A DNA stretch of 64,000 nt from Synechococcus sp. A10-1-5-1. GTDB taxonomy: Bacteria; Cyanobacteriota; Cyanobacteriia; PCC-6307; Cyanobiaceae. Numbering within the stretch: the stretch's first letter is position 1; the number at the start of each line of letters is the position of its first letter. The notes beneath the pieces were generated by a model. That model did no database searches, had not been told where the DNA came from, and was given only the letters and a program-made list of their open reading frames with translations. The DNA is taken from NCBI RefSeq assembly GCF_023115425.1, contig NZ_CP096032.1, forward strand, positions 2,232,001-2,296,000, given 5' to 3'. A program made the translations under genes and the position numbers. Positions 33,881 through 44,021 of this stretch are shown here, piece after piece.

Positions 33881-35011
33881 TCAGGAGAAACCCTTGCCGG
33901 CATCTTTCGCGACGCAGGCCTGAAGTTGCTTGCGGATCTTGGCGTGGTCGAGGTTTTTGCCGATCACCACCAGTTGGTTTTTGCGGTCGCTGGGCTTGCT
34001 CCACTCGCTGTCATCGATGGAGAAGCGCTTGCCGGCCAGGTGAAAGACGTGTCGCTTGCTGCTCTCGTTGAACCAGAGGATTCCCTTGGCGCGGAACACC
34101 CCGGCGGGGAGCTGGTTATCGAGGAAGTTTTGGAATTTACGCAGCGAGAAGGGACCTTCGCTGCCAAAGGAAAGGGATGTGAATCCCTCGATGGCGAGGT
34201 GATCCGCGTGGGAGTGCTCGTGGGAATGGTCGTGGGAATGGTCGTGGCTGTGATCGTGCTCGCAGTGACCGTGGTCGTGATCGCAGTTGCTGTGGTCATG
34301 GGCATGGTCATGGTCGTGCTCATGCACGCAGTGGCCGTGGTCGTGGTCGCAGTCGTCGTGGTTTTGCTCCGCAGTGACCTTGTCGCTTTCGAACAGGCCC
34401 ACGCTGAGCAGCAGCGGCAGGTTGACCTCGCCTTTCACCGAGCGCAGGATCCGGGCATCGGTTTTGATCTCCCTTAACTGGGCTTCCACCTCGTTGAGCC
34501 GCGCTTCGCTGACGAGGTCGCATTTGTTGAGCAGCAGGATGTCGCCGTAGACGACCTGGGCGCGGGCGACCTCCCCCTCGAGGATCTCGTCGCTGAAGTT
34601 TTCGGCATCGATCAACGTGATGATCGAGTCGAGCCGAGTCTGATCCCGTAGATCGCTGCCAAGGAAGGTCATGGCTACGGGCAGGGGATCCGCAAGCCCC
34701 GTGGTTTCCACCACCAGGTAGTCCACGGGATCTGGACGATCGAGGATGCGATAGACGGCCTCGAGCAGCTCACCATTGATGGAGCAGCAGATGCAGCCGT
34801 TGCTCAGTTCGACCATGTCCTCGCCGGTGGCGATGATCAGGTCGTTGTCGATGCCAATCTCCCCGAACTCATTGACCAGCACCGCCGTTTTGACGCCCTG
34901 CTGGTTGCTGAGAATGTGGTTGAGCAGCGTGGTTTTTCCCGCTCCAAGGAAGCCCGTGAGGATGGTTACGGGGAGCCCGCTGGGGGCCTGATCCATCAGG
35001 CTGCTGCTCAT
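33881..35011 (-). CDS. CobW/COG0523 GTPase with histidine-rich insert
   Basis: 376 residues. G3E GTPase core: Walker A GFLGAGKTT (20-28), the metal-binding CICC motif (GCICC), ETTGLADPLP and the NKCD specificity motif. Residues about 217-270 are a long His/Asp repeat (e.g. HDHDHAHDHSNCDHDHGHC) that would buffer metal. The C-terminal CobW_C domain follows. COG0523 proteins are metal chaperones, often Zur-regulated for zinc. Here it follows a lipoprotein gene divergent from znuA, supporting a zinc role. Confidence 0.92.
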   Translation of the reverse strand: MSSSLMDQAPSGLPVTILTGFLGAGKTTLLNHILSNQQGVKTAVLVNEFGEIGIDNDLIIATGEDMVELSNGCICCSINGELLEAVYRILDRPDPVDYLVVETTGLADPLPVAMTFLGSDLRDQTRLDSIITLIDAENFSDEILEGEVARAQVVYGDILLLNKCDLVSEARLNEVEAQLREIKTDARILRSVKGEVNLPLLLSVGLFESDKVTAEQNHDDCDHDHGHCVHEHDHDHAHDHSNCDHDHGHCEHDHSHDHSHDHSHEHSHADHLAIEGFTSLSFGSEGPFSLRKFQNFLDNQLPAGVFRAKGILWFNESSKRHVFHLAGKRFSIDDSEWSKPSDRKNQLVVIGKNLDHAKIRKQLQACVAKDAGKGFS

Positions 35012-35072: not shown

Positions 35073-35585
35073 TTAGAAGCCGCTCAAGCCGCAGGTCTCC
35101 CGATAGGTCTGCGCGATCGCTTGGTTCTCGGCTGAGCTGGTGAGGTCCTTGTAGGACTGGGCCGCGGCTTTGGCTCCAGTCCCATCCCCATCGGAGAAGG
35201 CATCGAGCATGGCGTTGATCACACCCAGTTCCTGTTGCTCGAGTACGAGATAGCGCGCTTGGGCGCTTTTGCAGGGGCCGTCCTGGAGGCTGGCCTGAAT
35301 GCTTTGTAGGGCGTCGGTGTAACGCGTTGCGGTGGCTCGGATCTGCTGGATCAGGGCCTCATGGTCGTGGTCGTCTTCGGGATCAAAGCGTTCCGGAGCT
35401 AACGCAATGCCCTTCAACAGGTGGCCTTCGAGGGCTGTGATGGCGCCTTCGTTGTAGGCGAGGAGTTCTTTCTGTTGGAGGCTCATCGCCGTGGAGTCAG
35501 CGCTGGGTGATTGGCAGGCCGTCAGGGCCAAGAGGCCTGCGGCGATGAATCCGGCATGGGCTCCAGAACGTCTGAGGGATTGCAT
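35073..35585 (-). CDS. lipoprotein of unknown function, zinc-cluster neighbour
   Basis: 170 residues from ATG 35585 (MQSLRRSGAHAGF) with a lipobox LTAC, hence lipid-anchored. The mature part is helical (LLAYNEGAITALEGHLLKG, LIQQIRATATRYTDALQSI), with a short DPEDDHDHEAL metal-binding-like patch. No family is recognised. The gene is divergent from znuA across a 110-base spacer containing a Zur-like palindrome, and cobW follows 61 bases downstream, so it may be Zur-regulated. Confidence 0.78.
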   Translation of the reverse strand: MQSLRRSGAHAGFIAAGLLALTACQSPSADSTAMSLQQKELLAYNEGAITALEGHLLKGIALAPERFDPEDDHDHEALIQQIRATATRYTDALQSIQASLQDGPCKSAQARYLVLEQQELGVINAMLDAFSDGDGTGAKAAAQSYKDLTSSAENQAIAQTYRETCGLSGF

Positions 35586-35664
35586 CAGCAGCGGAATGAC
35601 AGGCCTTGTCCACAGCCTGATGACGGCGCAACGGCATGGCAACGAGAGGTCAAATCGCCGAGAT

Positions 35665-35679
35665 TGAGAACTGTTATCA
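35665..35679. promoter_or_regulatory. putative Zur box
   Basis: TGAGAACTGTTATCA: a 7-1-7 inverted repeat with one mismatch, close to the AT-rich Fur/Zur consensus. It sits 16 bases before the znuA start and 79 bases before the lipoprotein start, in the only spacer between these divergent genes. Its overlap with a TATCAT-like -10 element suggests repression of znuA. The site is inferred, not proven. Confidence 0.7.
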
Positions 35680-35695: not shown

Positions 35696-36625
35696 TTGGT
35701 CTTGGTGCGCTGCTCTGCGCTTGTTGCCGGAATGGGTCTTGCCGCCGGTGTGACTGCTCTGGCCGTTCGACCCGTCGCTGCTGCTCAGCAGATCCCTTCT
35801 GTGGTGGCGGCCAACGGAATTCTTTGCGACCTCGTTCGCGTCGTGGCTGGATCCACGGTCTCTGTCGCTTGCTTGGTCCCGGATGGAGCGGATCCCCACG
35901 ACTACCGCTTGAGTGCCAGGGATCGCTCGAAGATTCAGTCGGCTTCGGTTGTGTTCCTCAATGGATACCGATTAAGCCCTGCGCTGGAGCGCATTGGGCA
36001 GCTGAAGCGGACGGTCAAGGTTGCTGAAGTCGCCGTGCCGTCCAGCCCATCTCGGGATCCACATGTTTGGCATAACCCTCTTCAGGCGGTAGCGATGGCG
36101 AAGGTGGTTGCCGTCCAGCTCAGGGGCAGCGTGTCTGGAGCGGCCCGTGCCTCGGTTGATGGCCGGCTCACGCGAGTTGCCTCTGTGCTGCAGCAATTGG
36201 ATCGCTGGACTGCAGCTCAGTTCGCCACCGTTCCCAAGGCCCACCGAGTTGTTCTAACGGAGCATGATGCGCTCTCTTCTCTGGCCAGGCGCTACCAGGT
36301 TCGTTATGTGCCTTTGATGGAATCATTCGCATCCGGTGGGCCGCTTCGTCCCAGCAGTCTTCGCGAGATCTCTAAGGCTGTGAAGGCATCAGGAACGAAG
36401 TATCTGTTTTCAGAATCAAGTGCAACGTCGAAAACGCTGCGTCGCATTAGTAAGACCTCGGGTGTCCCTGTCTATCAGAAGCATCTTGTCGTGGATGGAG
36501 TTGCAAAGCGGAAGACCTATGTCGGTACGTTTGTTTCCAATGTCTGTGCCCTGGTGAGTGCGCAAGGGGGGCGTTGCGACCGTGCATCTGGTGATCAAAT
36601 TGCATCTCGCTGGAGCGCAATTTAG
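35696..36625 (+). CDS. znuA: zinc ABC transporter, substrate-binding protein
   Basis: About 309 residues with a signal peptide ending near VAAAQ. Metal-site residues are visible as DGADPHDYRL, DPHVWHNPL, LTEHDAL and SESSATSK. It lacks the long His-rich loop of many ZnuA proteins. The start is one of TTG 35696, TTG 35702 or GTG 35705; the first is used. It precedes the barrel and znuC genes on the same strand. Confidence 0.9.
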   Translation: MVLVRCSALVAGMGLAAGVTALAVRPVAAAQQIPSVVAANGILCDLVRVVAGSTVSVACLVPDGADPHDYRLSARDRSKIQSASVVFLNGYRLSPALERIGQLKRTVKVAEVAVPSSPSRDPHVWHNPLQAVAMAKVVAVQLRGSVSGAARASVDGRLTRVASVLQQLDRWTAAQFATVPKAHRVVLTEHDALSSLARRYQVRYVPLMESFASGGPLRPSSLREISKAVKASGTKYLFSESSATSKTLRRISKTSGVPVYQKHLVVDGVAKRKTYVGTFVSNVCALVSAQGGRCDRASGDQIASRWSAI

Positions 36626-36667: not shown

Positions 36668-37648
36668 ATGGGCATGATGCATCCCTGCTCGTTCATCTCT
36701 CTTCTTAAGCGCCTTCCCTGGACGGCGAGCTGCATCCTGACCCTTTCGGCGCCCGCTGTTGCCCATGGCGGTCCTGGTGGTCAGGATCTAAAGCCTGGTG
36801 AGTTCAAGGCTTCTCCAATCATCACCATCGAAGGACATGGTGGGCTTGAGAACAATGTGCAGGGACCACCGAGGCACTACGCCATCGATGGGCTCTACGG
36901 AACGGTTCTCGAGTGGGGGCTTGAGAACAAAGGCAGTTTTGCGATTGAAGCCGCCATTGGTCCTGCTTTCGTGTGGGGTGAGGCTGAACACTTCTATGGC
37001 CAAGTTCATGCCCATGGTTCCCATGAGGATGAAGGCCATGATGATGATCATGGTGAGGATGAGGCGGAATCATTTTCGTCGGCTAGCCCCTGGCGCCGGA
37101 CTGATATCAAGGGTTATCTCTCCGCCCGGTATCAACCAACTGGGAATCTTTCGTTTCAGGCAACCTGGAAGCCCTATTACATCACCCGAACTCAGACGCA
37201 GGATGGTCTCGAAGATGAGTTGGGTTTAAGGAATGAGGTCCAGGTTGGTGCTCTCTATGCCTTTGGTGATGGTGATGTCAATTTCGCTTTGGGCGATGGC
37301 CTTGAAAGCGTTGTCGACGGCGTATTTGTTTCTGCCTACAACAACACGGGCTGGGACAGTAATGGTACGTACCTCGGTAATTACACCGACGCTTGGGCAG
37401 GCTTTGGGTTTAACTATGACCAGCTCAATGTGACCCTCTCGGGAGGCCCCCGCTTCTACACCCCTGGTCGCTACGCCAACCTTCCCCAGCGCACGGACTG
37501 GGGTGGTGAGATTGAGTTTGAATACCCCATCACGGACAATGTTGTTGCTTTCGCTCACTGGGAGGCGGTCTATAGCTCCGAGGGCGGCGAAGGTTGGGGA
37601 ATTGGATTCCAGCATCACATCGGTACTGGAGTGACCCTTCGCTTTTAG
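36668..37648 (+). CDS. outer-membrane beta-barrel protein with His/Asp-rich loop
   Basis: 326 residues. Signal peptide up to APAVA-HGG. The body alternates as expected for beta strands and ends in a C-terminal Phe (TGVTLRF), a barrel assembly signature. A loop at about residues 115-136 is packed with His and acidic residues (HAHGSHEDEGHDDDHGED), a likely zinc-binding site. Placed between znuA and znuC, it is a candidate outer-membrane zinc channel or receptor. Family assignment is unsure. Confidence 0.75.
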   Translation: MGMMHPCSFISLLKRLPWTASCILTLSAPAVAHGGPGGQDLKPGEFKASPIITIEGHGGLENNVQGPPRHYAIDGLYGTVLEWGLENKGSFAIEAAIGPAFVWGEAEHFYGQVHAHGSHEDEGHDDDHGEDEAESFSSASPWRRTDIKGYLSARYQPTGNLSFQATWKPYYITRTQTQDGLEDELGLRNEVQVGALYAFGDGDVNFALGDGLESVVDGVFVSAYNNTGWDSNGTYLGNYTDAWAGFGFNYDQLNVTLSGGPRFYTPGRYANLPQRTDWGGEIEFEYPITDNVVAFAHWEAVYSSEGGEGWGIGFQHHIGTGVTLRF

Positions 37649-37688: not shown

Positions 37689-38390
37689 TTGACCGGCTTG
37701 CTTCGCGTTCAAAATCTCTGCGTCCATCGCGGTCCGCAGCTTGTCCTGGAGGATGTCTCGTTCAACATCAAGCCTGGGTCATTGACGGCCTTGGTTGGGC
37801 CGAATGGGGCTGGTAAAAGCACTCTTTTGCATGCCCTTGAGGGGCAGTTGCCGGCATCGTCTGGCGTCATGGAGTTGGCTGGCTGTCCACTGACGCCCGC
37901 CTTGGCTCGACGTCAGATCGCCCTCATGCCGCAACGGGGAGTCATTGATTGGACCTTTCCGATCACGGTCCATGAATTGGTGGCCCTTGGCCGCTTGTTG
38001 GGTCGTCGTCCGGGCTGTTGCGATGTGGATGCGGTTTTGCAGCGGGTTGGCCTTGCAGGATTAGGGACCCGTCGATTGGATGAGCTGTCAGGCGGACAGC
38101 AGCAGCGGGCGCTTCTCGCCCGAACGCTGTTGCAGCCCGCCCAGCTCTTGCTTCTGGATGAACCCTGCGCGGCAATTGACCCCCCATCACGTACAAATTT
38201 GCTGCAGGTGATGCGTCAGCTGTGTGATTCAGGGTTGACGCTGCTTGTGAGTAGTCATGACTGGGGCAGTGATTTGGATTGCTACGACCAAGTTCTCGTT
38301 TTGGATCGAGCGCTTCTTGCCCAGGGTGCCCCCGAGACTGTCAGGAGCTCATTGGGTGATTTGAGAGTGGGGCATCAGTGCTGCGGTTAG
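37689..38390 (+). CDS. znuC: zinc ABC transporter, ATP-binding protein
   Basis: 233-residue ABC ATPase: Walker A VGPNGAGKST, signature LSGGQQQRALLARTL, Walker B LLLLDEPC, and switch His (SSHDWG). The start is a TTG at 37689. It is of the metal type (MntB/ZnuC), consistent with its place after znuA. The 3' end overlaps zur by four bases, tail to tail. Confidence 0.92.
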   Translation: MTGLLRVQNLCVHRGPQLVLEDVSFNIKPGSLTALVGPNGAGKSTLLHALEGQLPASSGVMELAGCPLTPALARRQIALMPQRGVIDWTFPITVHELVALGRLLGRRPGCCDVDAVLQRVGLAGLGTRRLDELSGGQQQRALLARTLLQPAQLLLLDEPCAAIDPPSRTNLLQVMRQLCDSGLTLLVSSHDWGSDLDCYDQVLVLDRALLAQGAPETVRSSLGDLRVGHQCCG

Positions 38391-38788
38391 TCCCGTTGGC
38401 GGGACTTGCACTGTTCGCACAGCCCAAAAAACTCGAGGGTATGAAACAGCAATTCGAAGCCATGTCTGTCAGCTGTGCCGAGGTCGACATGATGAACGGG
38501 GCAGCTGTTGAGGACAGCCGTTTCACCGCAGTCCACACAGGTGATGTGATGTTCGTCCCGTCCCAGCGGCGCAAAGAGGGCTTCCCCGCTGGGCAGATGC
38601 CTGCAGCGAATCTGTCCGCGTTGCTGCAGTTGGCGCAGGTGTCTGTAAACCGTGGCCAGTCCCATCGGACTGTTGCTGGCCCGCAGACGGGCGTGCAGGT
38701 CCTGTCCCGACAGCTCTTGATCGGCATCCTCCAGGTGCTGAATGATCAGCTGCTGCCGCTCGTTAGTCCCGGCAGCCTGGGAGGGCAT
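38387..38788 (-). CDS. zur: Fur family zinc uptake regulator
   Basis: 133 residues from ATG 38788. Winged helix: NERQQLIIQHLEDADQELSG, MGLATVYRHLRQLQQRGQI. The metal domain has DEHHITCVDCGETAVL, PVHHVDLG and CEQCK, i.e. two CxxC zinc clusters, the Zur pattern. Sits on the opposite strand between znuC and znuB. Assigned as Zur from family pattern plus context. Confidence 0.9.
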   Translation of the reverse strand: MPSQAAGTNERQQLIIQHLEDADQELSGQDLHARLRASNSPMGLATVYRHLRQLQQRGQIRCRHLPSGEALFAPLGRDEHHITCVDCGETAVLNSCPVHHVDLGTADRHGFELLFHTLEFFGLCEQCKSRQRD

Positions 38789-38819
38789 GCGCTTCCACTT
38801 CGGAGGTGTTCCTGATCCT

Positions 38820-39611
38820 ATGGCTGACTCTTGGTGGCTCTTTCCCTTCACCATCGCTCTTGTGGTGGGCATGCTCTGCCCTCTGGCAGGAACAGCACTC
38901 TTGGTGCAACGACGGCTGTTTCAGGTCAACCTGATTTCCCATGCTGTGCTGCCCGGACTGGCCATTGCCCTTTTCTGGGGAATTGAACCCGGCATCGGCG
39001 GCCTGATCAGTGGGGTGTTATTTGCACTGGTGGCGGAGCGCATGACCAGTGCTTTGCCCCAGGAAGATCGCTACAGGGAAGCAGTCCTCAACTCCGTGTT
39101 GGCCGGATCGCTTGGTCTCGGTGTTCTCCTGATTCCTTTACTGGGGATCCGCGTCGATCTTGAGGCTGTCTTGTTCGGGGATCTTCTGGCCGCTGGCCCC
39201 CGTGAGCTCATCCAAAGCCTCATGGCCTTGGCTTTGATTGTGATTCTGTTGGCGGGGCGTTATCGCCAGTACGTCTATCTCGGCGTCGATCCTGTTGGAG
39301 CCCAAGCCGCAGGGCTCCAGGTCACAGCCCTGCGCTTTTTGCTGACGTTGGTTGCGGCCGCAGCGGTGGTGAGTGCCGTTAGCGCAGTGGGCATCGTCTT
39401 GGTTGTCAGCTTGATGGCAGCTCCTGCATTACTGGCTCTGCCCAAGGCCAGGAGTTTGCGGCAAGCCCTGCTTCGATCGGCCCTTTGGGGATTGGTTTTG
39501 TCTGGCGGAGGGTTTGTACTGGCGGTGCAGGAATCGATCAATCTCCCGCCGGGGCCTGTGATTGGTGTCGTATGCATGGCAACCCTGCCATTTCAGTTAT
39601 TGCGCAGGTAA
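38820..39611 (+). CDS. znuB: zinc ABC transporter, permease
   Basis: 263 residues with eight or so TM helices of the ABC-3 family (LAGTALLVQRRLFQVNLISHAVLPGLA, GVDPVGAQAAGL, VSAVGIVLVVSLMAAPALLAL). The ATG at 38820 begins MADSWWLFPF; an upstream ATG at 38787 would reach into zur. Only 31 bases separate its start from that of divergent zur, so its promoter must lie inside zur or in this spacer. Confidence 0.92.
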   Translation: MADSWWLFPFTIALVVGMLCPLAGTALLVQRRLFQVNLISHAVLPGLAIALFWGIEPGIGGLISGVLFALVAERMTSALPQEDRYREAVLNSVLAGSLGLGVLLIPLLGIRVDLEAVLFGDLLAAGPRELIQSLMALALIVILLAGRYRQYVYLGVDPVGAQAAGLQVTALRFLLTLVAAAAVVSAVSAVGIVLVVSLMAAPALLALPKARSLRQALLRSALWGLVLSGGGFVLAVQESINLPPGPVIGVVCMATLPFQLLRR

Positions 39612-40910
39612 CCAGAATGCTTGCTTGATGGGCTTATCGATAATGTTTAGCTCTAAGTCTGACGCTTGAAGTTCTGCTGCACGTCCCCACTTCTGCTTTG
39701 GATCTCTCAGGGTTAGAAGGAGGACATCCCGTGTTGAATCCAATTCAAAATGGCTCCGAGTTTCAAGCTCCCAGCCTTTGAGTTCTCGCTGGTTTTGGAT
39801 GACCCCAGAACGGCTCATTGCAATCACCCTTGGGGTCTGTGTGTTCTTGACTGGATCCCAATGGGTCAATAACAGCCAGATCCTTTCCCCGCTGCGTTCG
39901 CAGGCTGTTCCCATCACGGCATCCAGGCCAATCCAAAGCTGCTTGGGTGCTTGTCCAGGCTCTAGGAGCTCGATGGATTGACGGTAGTCCGGCCATCGAC
40001 GCACCAGCAGAGCTCGCCCTCCTGTTGGACAAAAACTGCTGAGGTCCCGACTCCCTGGGAGGAACTGCCGACGTTGAGGTCGTCCAGGAAGGTTGCTCAA
40101 AACCAGCCCATCGGCTTCTGGTGCAATCAGTGCGCCTCCTCCTGGAAGAAGCTGAGCTGTCCCTGATGCTTCAAGGTCGAGGCGTCTTCGCTGCCCATTG
40201 GCTTCCACCAACGTTGTGAAAGAGCGTGCAAAGCCAGGAGCACCCCACTGCACTAACAGATCCCCTGTGCTGTTGGTGCTGAAGTGGGTGAAGGTCAGTT
40301 GAGCGTCGAGAAGTTGCTTGAGTCCTTTGACTACAAGTTTTGGAGTCTTTGATCGATAGACGGCTTGTTGTTCTAATTCGAGGAGCCAGGTCTGTTCAGT
40401 TCGCTCGCCACTGGTGCTGAAGGCAATTCCTGAACCATTGCCGAGGGGGGTGACCGAGGAGATGGGCGCGTTCGCTCGGCTCAAGGTCCTCCAGCGTCCA
40501 TCGCGCTGAAGAATGTCCAGGCGATCCCCCTCTGGTCCGGGTGCGACCACAAGCAGCCTGGGCCTTGGATCCCACCAGAAGCGTTCTGGGGAAATGGCAA
40601 TCCCACGTTGATCCTCTCCCCGAAGGACGACTTGTAGGGGACCTGCAATGGTTTGGCCGGGCTCAAGAAGCAGACGCAAGAGGTTGCCCGCCCCAAGCCA
40701 TTGGCGCCTCATCCTGGGGCTGAGTTCGCTTGCCGACGCAACGCTGTTGCGTTGCATGGGACGGCTGAACTCAACATTGAGAGCTGCAGGTCCAGAGCTC
40801 AGGGTGCTCGAGTCCAGCTGGCGCACATGGGGAGGACGCTTCAGCAGGAGCTGCTGCTGAACGGCGGCTAGAGCAAGACCAGCTCCGAGTAACCAGCTCA
40901 GCTGCTTCAT
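39597..40910 (-). CDS. exported or anchored beta-propeller-like protein of unknown function
   Basis: 437 residues with an N-terminal signal-anchor (SWLLGAGLALAAVQQQLLL) then repeats with a blade-like rhythm, e.g. RLDILQRDGRWRTLSRA, TWLLELEQQAVYRS, SIELLEPGQAPKQLW. I read it as a TolB-like propeller but recognise no family. It is third in a coupled operon after the permease and TIGR03943 genes (four-base overlap upstream) and overlaps the end of znuB by 15 bases. Confidence 0.72.
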   Translation of the reverse strand: MKQLSWLLGAGLALAAVQQQLLLKRPPHVRQLDSSTLSSGPAALNVEFSRPMQRNSVASASELSPRMRRQWLGAGNLLRLLLEPGQTIAGPLQVVLRGEDQRGIAISPERFWWDPRPRLLVVAPGPEGDRLDILQRDGRWRTLSRANAPISSVTPLGNGSGIAFSTSGERTEQTWLLELEQQAVYRSKTPKLVVKGLKQLLDAQLTFTHFSTNSTGDLLVQWGAPGFARSFTTLVEANGQRRRLDLEASGTAQLLPGGGALIAPEADGLVLSNLPGRPQRRQFLPGSRDLSSFCPTGGRALLVRRWPDYRQSIELLEPGQAPKQLWIGLDAVMGTACERSGERIWLLLTHWDPVKNTQTPRVIAMSRSGVIQNQRELKGWELETRSHFELDSTRDVLLLTLRDPKQKWGRAAELQASDLELNIIDKPIKQAFWLPAQ

Positions 40911-41590
40911 GGCTCTAAGGGTTGCTCAGGCCTTGGAATGGATCGGATTTGCTCAGGGATCACAACGCTTTGGCTGGATCCATTGCTGGTGAACTCCATG
41001 CCCATCTGCCCGCGGATGAGGAGCCATTCGTCGCGTTTTGGTCTGTAGGTCTCAGGCCAACGAATCGGAATGCCGATCGGGGTCGCATCGGCTAAGCAGC
41101 AGCGAACAGTGAGGCGACCGAGTTGTGGCATTCCTCTGGTTGGTTCGTAAACAAAGCCGCTGATGTTGACGGGATCGCCGACATACAGCTGGGGATCCGG
41201 TTGGCTGCGCAGAAGCCTGACCCAATCCGTCAGCGTTCGCTGGGATGGGGGTAGGACAAATTCCAGTTCTGCAGGTGAGGCCAAGGCTTCACTGCGGTTT
41301 GCCGCCAGATCGCTAAAGGAGGGGTTGGGTGGGGCGATCAAAACAGCGATGGCCATGGCGCTGCTGAATATCCACGCCTGGTTGGTCTTGTGCGACTCCA
41401 GCGCCTGACCCGGCCTGAGGAGTTGCTGAATGGCCAGAGCGAGCAGGGCGAAACCGCAGAGTCCCACGAGTGGGTGGAACACTCCTCGCAACAACAGATC
41501 TAAACGTCCGCTCAGGGTGCTCAGCACCAGCACGGCCCCCCAGAGGGCCAAGGTGATTGGGCGGATCAGAGCAGCCACAGGTTGACCCAT
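40907..41590 (-). CDS. TIGR03943 family (DUF1980-like) membrane protein
   Basis: 227 residues: three TM segments in the first 95 residues (ITLALWGAVLVLSTLSG, PLVGLCGFALLALAIQQLL, IFSSAMAIAVLIAPP), then a periplasmic beta-rich domain containing VNISGFVYEP and RLTVRCCLADATPIG. This layout matches TIGR03943 proteins, found encoded beside UPF0718 permeases, as here. Function is unknown. It overlaps the upstream permease gene by 25 bases and the next gene by four. Confidence 0.85.
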   Translation of the reverse strand: MGQPVAALIRPITLALWGAVLVLSTLSGRLDLLLRGVFHPLVGLCGFALLALAIQQLLRPGQALESHKTNQAWIFSSAMAIAVLIAPPNPSFSDLAANRSEALASPAELEFVLPPSQRTLTDWVRLLRSQPDPQLYVGDPVNISGFVYEPTRGMPQLGRLTVRCCLADATPIGIPIRWPETYRPKRDEWLLIRGQMGMEFTSNGSSQSVVIPEQIRSIPRPEQPLEP

Positions 41591-42519
41591 TGCCCAATTA
41601 ACAACACAACAACACTGGCTCCGATCGCCGTGACGGCGATCGCCTTGGGTCGCATGATCACTCCAAATAGTCCCAGTAATTTCAGGTCGACAACTGGACC
41701 TAAAACCAGAAAAGCCAAGAGCGCACCGGGTGTGATTTGCGCAGCAAATCCCAGGGCTAAAAAGGCGTCAACGCTGGAGCAGACCGAAATCACAACGGCC
41801 ATCAGCATCAAGCTGAGAATGGAGAGCGTTGGCGATCCCCCCACCGCCAGCAGCCAGCTGCGAGGCAGCAGGGTTTGCACGGTGGCGGCGATCAGGCTGC
41901 CGATGATCAGCAAGACAGCCAGGTTGAGAAACTCCCGCGTGCTGTGCTCGAGCACCGTGGTCAGGCTCGGACGATTCGGTCTTGCTTGAGGGGGTTGAGT
42001 GGGTGTGCCGAGCACACCACTTTTTCTCTCGAGCAGGCTGGCCTCCGCTAAGGGTTGGCTGAGCCGGCGCTCGGCGAGCAGGCTGGATTCAAGAAGTTGT
42101 CCCTCGGGCAGTTTCTGGAGCAATCCAGAGAGGACCACCGCGACCAGCAGCGCTCCCAAGGGGCGCGCTGCGATCAACCAGGGCTGATCGGGGAATGCCG
42201 CCCAGGTGCTGGCCAACACAATCGGGTTGAGAACAGGGGCTGCAAACAAAAACCCCAGTGCCGACCCCATGGAGGCCCCCCCGGCCAGCAGTCGCCGGGC
42301 CACCGGGACATTGCCGCATTCGCAAGCAGGTAAGGCAAAGCCCAGGGCGGCTCCGCTGAGTGGAGCCAAGACGGCCTGCTTGGGCAGGCGCTGCAGCCAG
42401 CGTCCGCCTGGTGCGACCCAGCGCGCCAGGCCTGCGATGAGCACCCCGATCAAGAGAAAGGGCAGGGCTTCAATCAAGAGGCCCTGGAAGATCGCCCAAA
42501 TCGTCGCGATTCGAGCCAA
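41566..42519 (-). CDS. UPF0718/ArsP-like permease
   Basis: 317 residues, eight or more TM segments. The motif GALLLAFALPACECGNVPVARRLLAGG-like region (here ALGFALPACECGNVPVARRL) and SSVDAFLALGFA are the two conserved pore-region blocks of the DUF318/UPF0718 family, whose ArsP members export organoarsenicals. The substrate here is unknown. The start is a TTG at 42519. First gene of the operon, next to the zinc genes. Confidence 0.88.
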   Translation of the reverse strand: MARIATIWAIFQGLLIEALPFLLIGVLIAGLARWVAPGGRWLQRLPKQAVLAPLSGAALGFALPACECGNVPVARRLLAGGASMGSALGFLFAAPVLNPIVLASTWAAFPDQPWLIAARPLGALLVAVVLSGLLQKLPEGQLLESSLLAERRLSQPLAEASLLERKSGVLGTPTQPPQARPNRPSLTTVLEHSTREFLNLAVLLIIGSLIAATVQTLLPRSWLLAVGGSPTLSILSLMLMAVVISVCSSVDAFLALGFAAQITPGALLAFLVLGPVVDLKLLGLFGVIMRPKAIAVTAIGASVVVLLIGQWVNLWLL

Positions 42520-43002: not shown

Positions 43003-43085
43003 GAAAAAGCTTTCGCGAAATCGAAAGCGGATCTTAAATTACGACCCCTGAGACTTGAATGTCGCCTATGCGACAGGATCGCGTT

Positions 43086-43529
43086 TCAATGCGGGTGTTC
43101 GTTGCAGGGCATCCAGCCAGAGCCCATGGGGTGGGCGCCGGAGCAGCCGAAGTCCTGGGCCTTCTTCAGGGCCTGCTGCTGGCTGGGGTAGATGGTCAGT
43201 TCCTTGGACGCGGGCTGATGTGCATGCTCTGGGCTTGGGCTCAGGGTCCAAAGGCCCATGGTGTTCAGCCCCGCGACGGCCACCCCCATGCCGACGAGGC
43301 AGGCATTGAGCACGCCCATGCCCACGACTCCCAGGCTCACAACGCCCATGGGAACAACACCAATGCTCACCACTCCCATGGGCACGATGCCGATGGACAC
43401 GATTCCCAGAGGCGCAATGCCAATGGCCACGCGTTTTGGTGGCTCCGAGCAGCTTGCAGGGCTGAACGCGCGGGTCTTGGTCGGACGTTCAGGACTGCTG
43501 ACCATGGGGCGCTCGAGCGGTGGCGCCAT
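43086..43529 (-). CDS. DUF3721 protein with hydrophobic pentad-like repeats
   Basis: 147 residues in three parts. Residues 1-34 are basic and Pro-rich. Residues 35-90 repeat a (V/I)G(I/V)(V/A)(P/S)(M/I/L) unit, e.g. IGIVPMGVVSIGVVPMGVV, with about ten copies. The C-terminus has YPSQQQALKKAQDFGCSGAH and GWMPC, the DUF3721 motif, whose Cys/His residues could bind metal. The repeat resembles a membrane or beta-helical filament. An ORF on the other strand here is a shadow. Confidence 0.8.
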   Translation of the reverse strand: MAPPLERPMVSSPERPTKTRAFSPASCSEPPKRVAIGIAPLGIVSIGIVPMGVVSIGVVPMGVVSLGVVGMGVLNACLVGMGVAVAGLNTMGLWTLSPSPEHAHQPASKELTIYPSQQQALKKAQDFGCSGAHPMGSGWMPCNEHPH

Positions 43530-43544
43530 CCTGCTGGGTTTTGA

Positions 43545-44021
43545 TCAGTCCTCCCGGGTTTCGTCGTTAAACCATGTGGGGACGTCCGCATAGCAGGCGG
43601 CGTTCTTTTCGTTCTCACGCGCTTCGACTTTCCAGCAGCAGCTGCGGCCGCCATCGCGGGCCTTCAACAGCGTGTTGGCCCAGTCCCAGACCAGGGCGGC
43701 ACTGGCTTCCATGCCGACGTTGTCCATCACCCGCAGATCCAGGGCCCCCTGCTCGTGGAGGCCCTGCCATTGCTCCAAGAGCGGGTCGTCGGCGTTGACC
43801 AAAAAGGTGTGGTCAAACTGCTGCCTGAGGCGTTGCTCCAGTTCGCTCAGGCTGGAGAAATCCACCACAAAGCCGTTCTCGTCCAGATCCTTGGCCTGGA
43901 ACCAAAAGCAGAAACTGCGGCTGTAACCGTGCACAAAACGGCAATGACCGCTGTGCCTCCACTGCCGGTGGCAACAGGGGTAGCCGCTAAAGGTTTTGCT
44001 GCAGGTGTAGGCGGCGGTCAT
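43545..44021 (-). CDS. QueD-like 6-carboxytetrahydropterin synthase family protein
   Basis: 158 residues with the PTPS fold marks: [17 protein letters not shown], then [28 protein letters not shown] and FDHTFLV, and a conserved Glu near [11 protein letters not shown] (WKVEAREN). The catalytic Cys aligns with GHC, but the usual HGH zinc motif reads HGY, so the third zinc ligand is a Tyr. It may be a paralogue with altered chemistry. ATG at 44021; divergent from hisIE. Confidence 0.82.

Follow-up and report, generated by a model that had tools for sequence, protein, structure and literature searches.

The window analysed here is a 64,000-nucleotide stretch of the genome of Synechococcus sp. A10-1-5-1 (2.40 Mb, 99.98% complete). 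The gene under study, OMB (36668..37648, + strand), starts with ATG and encodes a protein of 326 amino acids ending in GVTLRF, which is predicted from the open reading frame, AlphaFold2 and Foldseek to be a 12-stranded outer-membrane β-barrel with a His/Asp-rich loop. It is preceded by znuA (35696..36625, +; PF01297, E 4e-48), encoding the periplasmic zinc-binding protein of an ABC importer, and followed by the ABC ATPase gene znuC (37689..38390, +; PF00005 (ABC_tran), E 1e-28); 42 bases separate znuA from the barrel gene and 40 bases separate the barrel gene from znuC, all three on the plus strand. The permease gene znuB (38742..39611, +; PF00950 (ABC-3), E 1e-38) has its true start probably nearer 38820, and a Fur-family regulator gene (38387..38872, −; PF01475, E 2e-17) is a candidate zur; many relatives have a homologue of it within their zinc cluster. 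Directly upstream of znuA lies a candidate Zur box, TGAGAACTGTTATCA (35665..35679, +). Scans for sigma-70 promoters and terminators gave nothing above chance.

The locus is flanked by other likely zinc genes: those for a COG0523 GTPase with a His-rich segment, a HupE/UreJ protein, an ArsP_1 permease with a DUF1980 protein, and a second Fur. The COG0523 (CobW-type) GTPase (33881-35011, −) carries a long His/Asp-rich insert, belongs to the same zinc island and is found near the barrel in several relatives. A predicted lipoprotein of 189 amino acids and no clear family (35073-35642, −) is divergent from znuA and recurs among the related loci only in L031. A 437-residue protein without a Pfam match (39597-40910, −) is conserved in many relatives, next to the znu genes and the ArsP_1/DUF1980 pair; by its position there it may be the counterpart of synw0973, a gene of strain WH8102 that is Zur-regulated and uncharacterised. 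The DUF1980 protein and ArsP_1 permease pair (40907-42519, −) accompanies zinc genes; a pair of this type is Zur-regulated in Bacillus subtilis. The segment at 43059-43593 is repetitive, its minus strand reading as pentapeptide-like repeats of the GIVPMGVVSIG type.

An earlier note, made from the letters of this stretch, had described a signal peptide, a terminal Phe and a His/Asp loop in a protein encoded between znuA and znuC, and all of these were found in the 326-residue reading frame. The signal peptide, read from the sequence, spans residues 1-32 (36668..36763, +) and ends in ...LTLSAPAVA/HGG; given cleavage after AVA, the mature N-terminus would be His33, which is conserved across all long homologues. 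The terminal residue F326 is kept at a level of at least 90% in the homologue alignment.

Folding of the protein with AlphaFold2 on an alignment of 45 homologues gave a model with a pLDDT of 78 and a pTM of 0.76, in which 158 residues reached at least 90. The twelve strands comprise residues 46-61, 69-84, 90-104, 144-156, 161-172 and 186-198 (strands 1-6), and 218-229, 235-250, 253-266, 275-287, 292-303 and 313-325 (strands 7-12). A Prochlorococcus homologue, 44% identical and folded on its own alignment, showed the same 12-strand topology, and the two folds are not fully independent, since most rows are common to both alignments. When the model was compared with the PDB by Foldseek, outer-membrane barrels filled the top 50, autotransporter domains and the porin 8xua among them; the top matches were NalP, OmpG, FadL, porins, Hbp and 8xua. 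A search for PDB relatives by sequence found none, the Pfam porin models gave no match for the protein beyond a PF24653 match below cut-off, and OMP_b-brl matched weakly in 11 of 45 family members. By prediction, the protein combines the signal peptide, the even number of antiparallel strands and the C-terminal aromatic residue characteristic of outer-membrane β-barrels. Even-stranded barrels usually have both ends in the periplasm; with both termini periplasmic, the loop between strands 3 and 4 would therefore be extracellular. Taken together, the predictions support well the assignment of the protein as an outer-membrane barrel, and the barrel topology and loop exposure, which the earlier note had proposed to check, were borne out by two AlphaFold2 models, the Foldseek matches and the extracellular side on which the predicted topology places the loop.

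This loop, by the predicted topology the second on the extracellular side (L2, residues 112-142, QVHAHGSHEDEGHDDDHGEDEAESFSSASPW; 37001..37093, +), includes HAHGSHEDEGHDDDHGED at residues 114-131. His, Asp and Glu cluster in it beyond chance, with a hypergeometric P of 5e-6 within the protein. The loop is modelled with low confidence by AlphaFold2, as expected of a flexible arm. Among the 43 long homologues in the alignment, its length varies from 18 to 105 residues and its content of His, Asp and Glu from 38 to 86%, and a barrel outside the alignment (G061) has a loop of 169 residues with 52 histidines. Histidine occurs in the loop of 41 of the 43 aligned long homologues, the loops of L045 and L047 being purely acidic; loop histidine is thus not indispensable. 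The idea that loop histidines are lost in homologues away from znuA, which L047 fits, was dropped because L045 lies next to znuA and lacks them, and because L034 and L066 keep them. In genome G231 (L150:8524-10182), znuA has no adjoining barrel and an SLH-type porin-like gene is convergent to it; the barrel of this genome lies elsewhere and its loop is purely acidic.

The long form has six invariant histidines, at positions 33, 57, 70, 108, 297 and 317, and two nearly invariant ones, His114 and His316. Judged from strand register and hydrophobic alternation rather than from measured distances, His57 (strand 1), His70 (strand 2), His297 (strand 11) and His317 (strand 12) would face the lumen together with Glu55 and Asp74, and His108 would lie just past strand 3 at the outer rim. 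The strands bearing these residues adjoin round the barrel closure, with His57, His70, His108 and His317 nearer its extracellular side. These residues are absent from the short barrels.

The N- and C-terminal halves of the protein are homologous by hhalign (probability 96.8, score 60), as compared with a maximum score of 20 in 60 column shuffles and of 13 for the reversed profile; the probability was still 95.8 after removal of two short homologues. The barrel thus consists of two homologous six-stranded halves. The C-terminal half matches PF24653 (Phage_OMP), a cyanophage barrel unit of about 120 amino acids, with 21.4 bits against a cut-off of 27, and the cut-off is reached in the homologues L047 (36.5), L069 (31.5) and L066 (27.0 bits). 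As the protein studied here falls below the cut-off and these three lie at or above it, PF24653 is best regarded as a distant relative, and, as the earlier note had supposed, no curated family holds the protein. The short barrels of G032 and G074, 260 amino acids long and encoded next to zur and cobW genes, each contain two PF24653 stretches and no His loop. Since short barrels carry both stretches without a loop, and since the halves are homologous, the His loop appears to have been inserted into the first half of a barrel whose duplication is older. In Synechococcus RCC307 (L034:7995-9771), two barrels, one long with a His loop and the other short, lie in tandem between zur and cobW; znuA is missing upstream, where there is nevertheless a Zur-box-like site.

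The phage proteins of PF24653 (also phrog_417) resemble the cellular barrel through this distant homology with its C-terminal half, and Q58LB0 of phage P-SSM4 aligns with it at 1.7 Å over 110 columns. They are single halves, whereas in the cellular protein the unit is doubled to form a full barrel, and a His loop is present. In cyanophages such as P-TIM40 and ACG-2014f, and at L079:7734-8513, a single six-stranded unit is distantly related to each cellular half, and such a half-barrel might dimerise. A phage origin of the barrel gene was rejected: the protein had no phage match, and the alignment had no match on a viral contig. The distant half-barrel relation is the sole phage connection left standing.

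The barrel is present in 77 of 251 Cyanobiaceae genomes, in two of them as the short form, and in a sample of the phylum it was found in 21 of 339 genomes, all Cyanobiaceae; named relatives matched by the family alignment belong to Synechococcus, Prochlorococcus, Cyanobium and Vulcanococcus. Directly upstream of the barrel, znuA was present in 43 of the 47 long-form loci examined, the exceptions being L034, L047, L051 and L066. The expectation that homologues would be found near znu genes was thus supported, with L047 and L066 as exceptions away from metal genes. Among the 251 genomes, with znuA counted among the matches listed (at about E 1e-50 or better), 71 had both genes, 6 the barrel only, 5 znuA only and 169 neither (Fisher P 8e-49, relatedness ignored); in some of the barrel-only genomes znuA is cut by a contig end. 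Co-occurrence of the barrel and znuA is well supported by these counts. The znuA-barrel-znuC order recurs in two sister genomes (L031, L032), and elsewhere znuBC is often divergent from znuA-barrel. The barrel was found in all 19 near-complete genomes of genus g5, and one genome of this genus has, at L204 (G558:C1:1433445-1434211), a decayed copy interrupted by several stop codons.

The candidate Zur box matches 11 of the 12 fixed positions of TGATAANNNTTATCA and is the sole match in the window to TGATAATNATTATCA at up to 3 mismatches; as 0.22 matches are expected there, this match alone is weak evidence. In relatives a Zur-box-like palindrome mostly recurs before znuA: of 40 loci, 33 agree at 10 or more of the 12 fixed positions and 38 at 9 or more, although in several AT-rich Prochlorococcus loci such sites are not clearly above shuffles. 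In Synechococcus WH8102, a published Zur box lies between the divergent znuC and znuA, and synw0972, which adjoins znuA and is likely co-transcribed with it, is up at low zinc and in a zur mutant (PMC9337993). The znuBC-znuA-barrel layout of genus g5 matches the published WH8102 order, the barrel occupying the position of synw0972, and on this gene order SYNW0972 is likely the orthologue of the barrel studied here. Control of the barrel by Zur and its induction by zinc shortage are fairly supported, the measurements being those for the likely orthologue.

A TonB-dependent receptor of the ZnuD type was rejected as a description of the protein, which has neither PF07715 nor a receptor match and has 12 strands, in a host without plug or ExbD. 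Searches of the 99.98% complete host genome found no plug domain (PF07715) and no ExbD, with control genomes giving the expected matches. The plug domain occurs in 18 of the 251 Cyanobiaceae genomes and in none of the 77 with the barrel (P 0.002, an exclusion that may only reflect lineage); as none of them has a plug domain, ZnuD-like uptake is unlikely in the barrel genomes examined. The proposal that G049, which has znuA and no barrel, uses a TonB receptor for zinc instead was not supported; the receptor gene has TonB/ExbBD-like genes and one for an ABC binding protein as neighbours, and no Zur box.

The barrel is in our view probably a TonB-independent outer-membrane port for zinc uptake, made under zinc starvation together with ZnuABC; that it binds zinc, passes it and hands it over to ZnuA is what we infer. 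Once Zur releases the promoter, the barrel would be inserted in the outer membrane, where the loop would trap Zn(II) with weak binding and high capacity. Zinc might then step from the loop along the invariant histidines on the adjacent strands 3, 2, 1, 12 and 11 into the periplasm, to be drawn onward there by high-affinity ZnuA. With ZnuABC as the sink, TonB energy would not be needed. Counting against a dedicated port is that a generic porin could pass zinc anyway. More tentatively, the barrel may represent a new family of plug-less, TonB-independent, zinc-dedicated channels that originated when a six-stranded unit shared with cyanophages was duplicated, with an expandable extracellular His/Asp capture arm and a ladder of invariant lumen histidines leading to ZnuA.

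The hugely variable length and low complexity of the loop, which recall a chelating arm rather than an element of a gated channel, would also suit a closed surface buffer or docking receptor that concentrates zinc, or takes it from a secreted carrier or zincophore, and leaves its passage to ordinary porins; a secreted zinc-binding protein, ZepA, is found in another cyanobacterium (PMC10957091). Such a role is unlikely, as it leaves unexplained why the lumen-facing histidines are invariant and the loop variable, and it is this invariance that favours a channel. The same residues bear on a zinc-induced general porin or envelope barrel without special zinc handling, whose acidic and His-rich loop merely attracts cations. 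General porins and OmpG are indeed among the nearest Foldseek matches, and the two homologues without loop histidines keep an acidic loop, but the invariant histidines, the near-exclusive linkage to znuA and the near-restriction to genomes with the zinc system indicate a dedicated role and make such a porin improbable. Nor does the sequence by itself fix the metal, and loops rich in His, Asp and Glu can bind Ni, Cu and Co too. That the port serves another metal, or efflux, is nevertheless very improbable, since the candidate Zur box points to zinc import, as does the published response of the likely orthologue to low zinc and to loss of zur (PMC9337993).

The favoured reading, a dedicated zinc port, bears on how zinc crosses the outer membrane of picocyanobacteria, an open question because TonB-dependent receptors are mostly absent from them. 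In the sea and in fresh water alike, picocyanobacteria grow where zinc is very scarce, and the barrel may be how zinc enters in cells that mostly lack powered receptors. As a single small conserved gene by znuA, it makes the question directly testable; a port would also account for a Zur target that is uncharacterised in a model strain, and the gene is a candidate marker of oceanic zinc stress. As a gene it is not new, since public genomes contain it and one of its likely orthologues is already known as a Zur target. In the literature consulted, which covers the relevant papers incompletely, no functional description of the barrel, its loop or its family was found.

Among described proteins, SYNW0972 of WH8102 resembles the barrel in lying next to znuA and in being regulated by Zur and zinc; in the accessible part of its publication it appears only as an uncharacterised protein, with no barrel, loop or family described (PMC9337993). 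ZnuD of Neisseria is likewise a Zur-regulated outer-membrane barrel for zinc upstream of ZnuABC (PMC3872050). However, ZnuD is a TonB-dependent receptor, and such receptors have 22 strands and a plug and need TonB/ExbBD (PMC7676907), whereas the barrel studied here has 12 predicted strands and no plug, in a host without ExbD. Closest in presumed mechanism are MspD of Mycobacterium smegmatis, which is Zur-controlled (PMC13098993), and MnoP of Bradyrhizobium (PMC6011978); both are channels that let metals through the outer membrane without belonging to the TonB system. The likeness is one of presumed function, and, set beside MspD and MnoP, the barrel matches no Pfam porin family. By this analogy, the port would most likely work like MspD or MnoP, with a chelating arm added.
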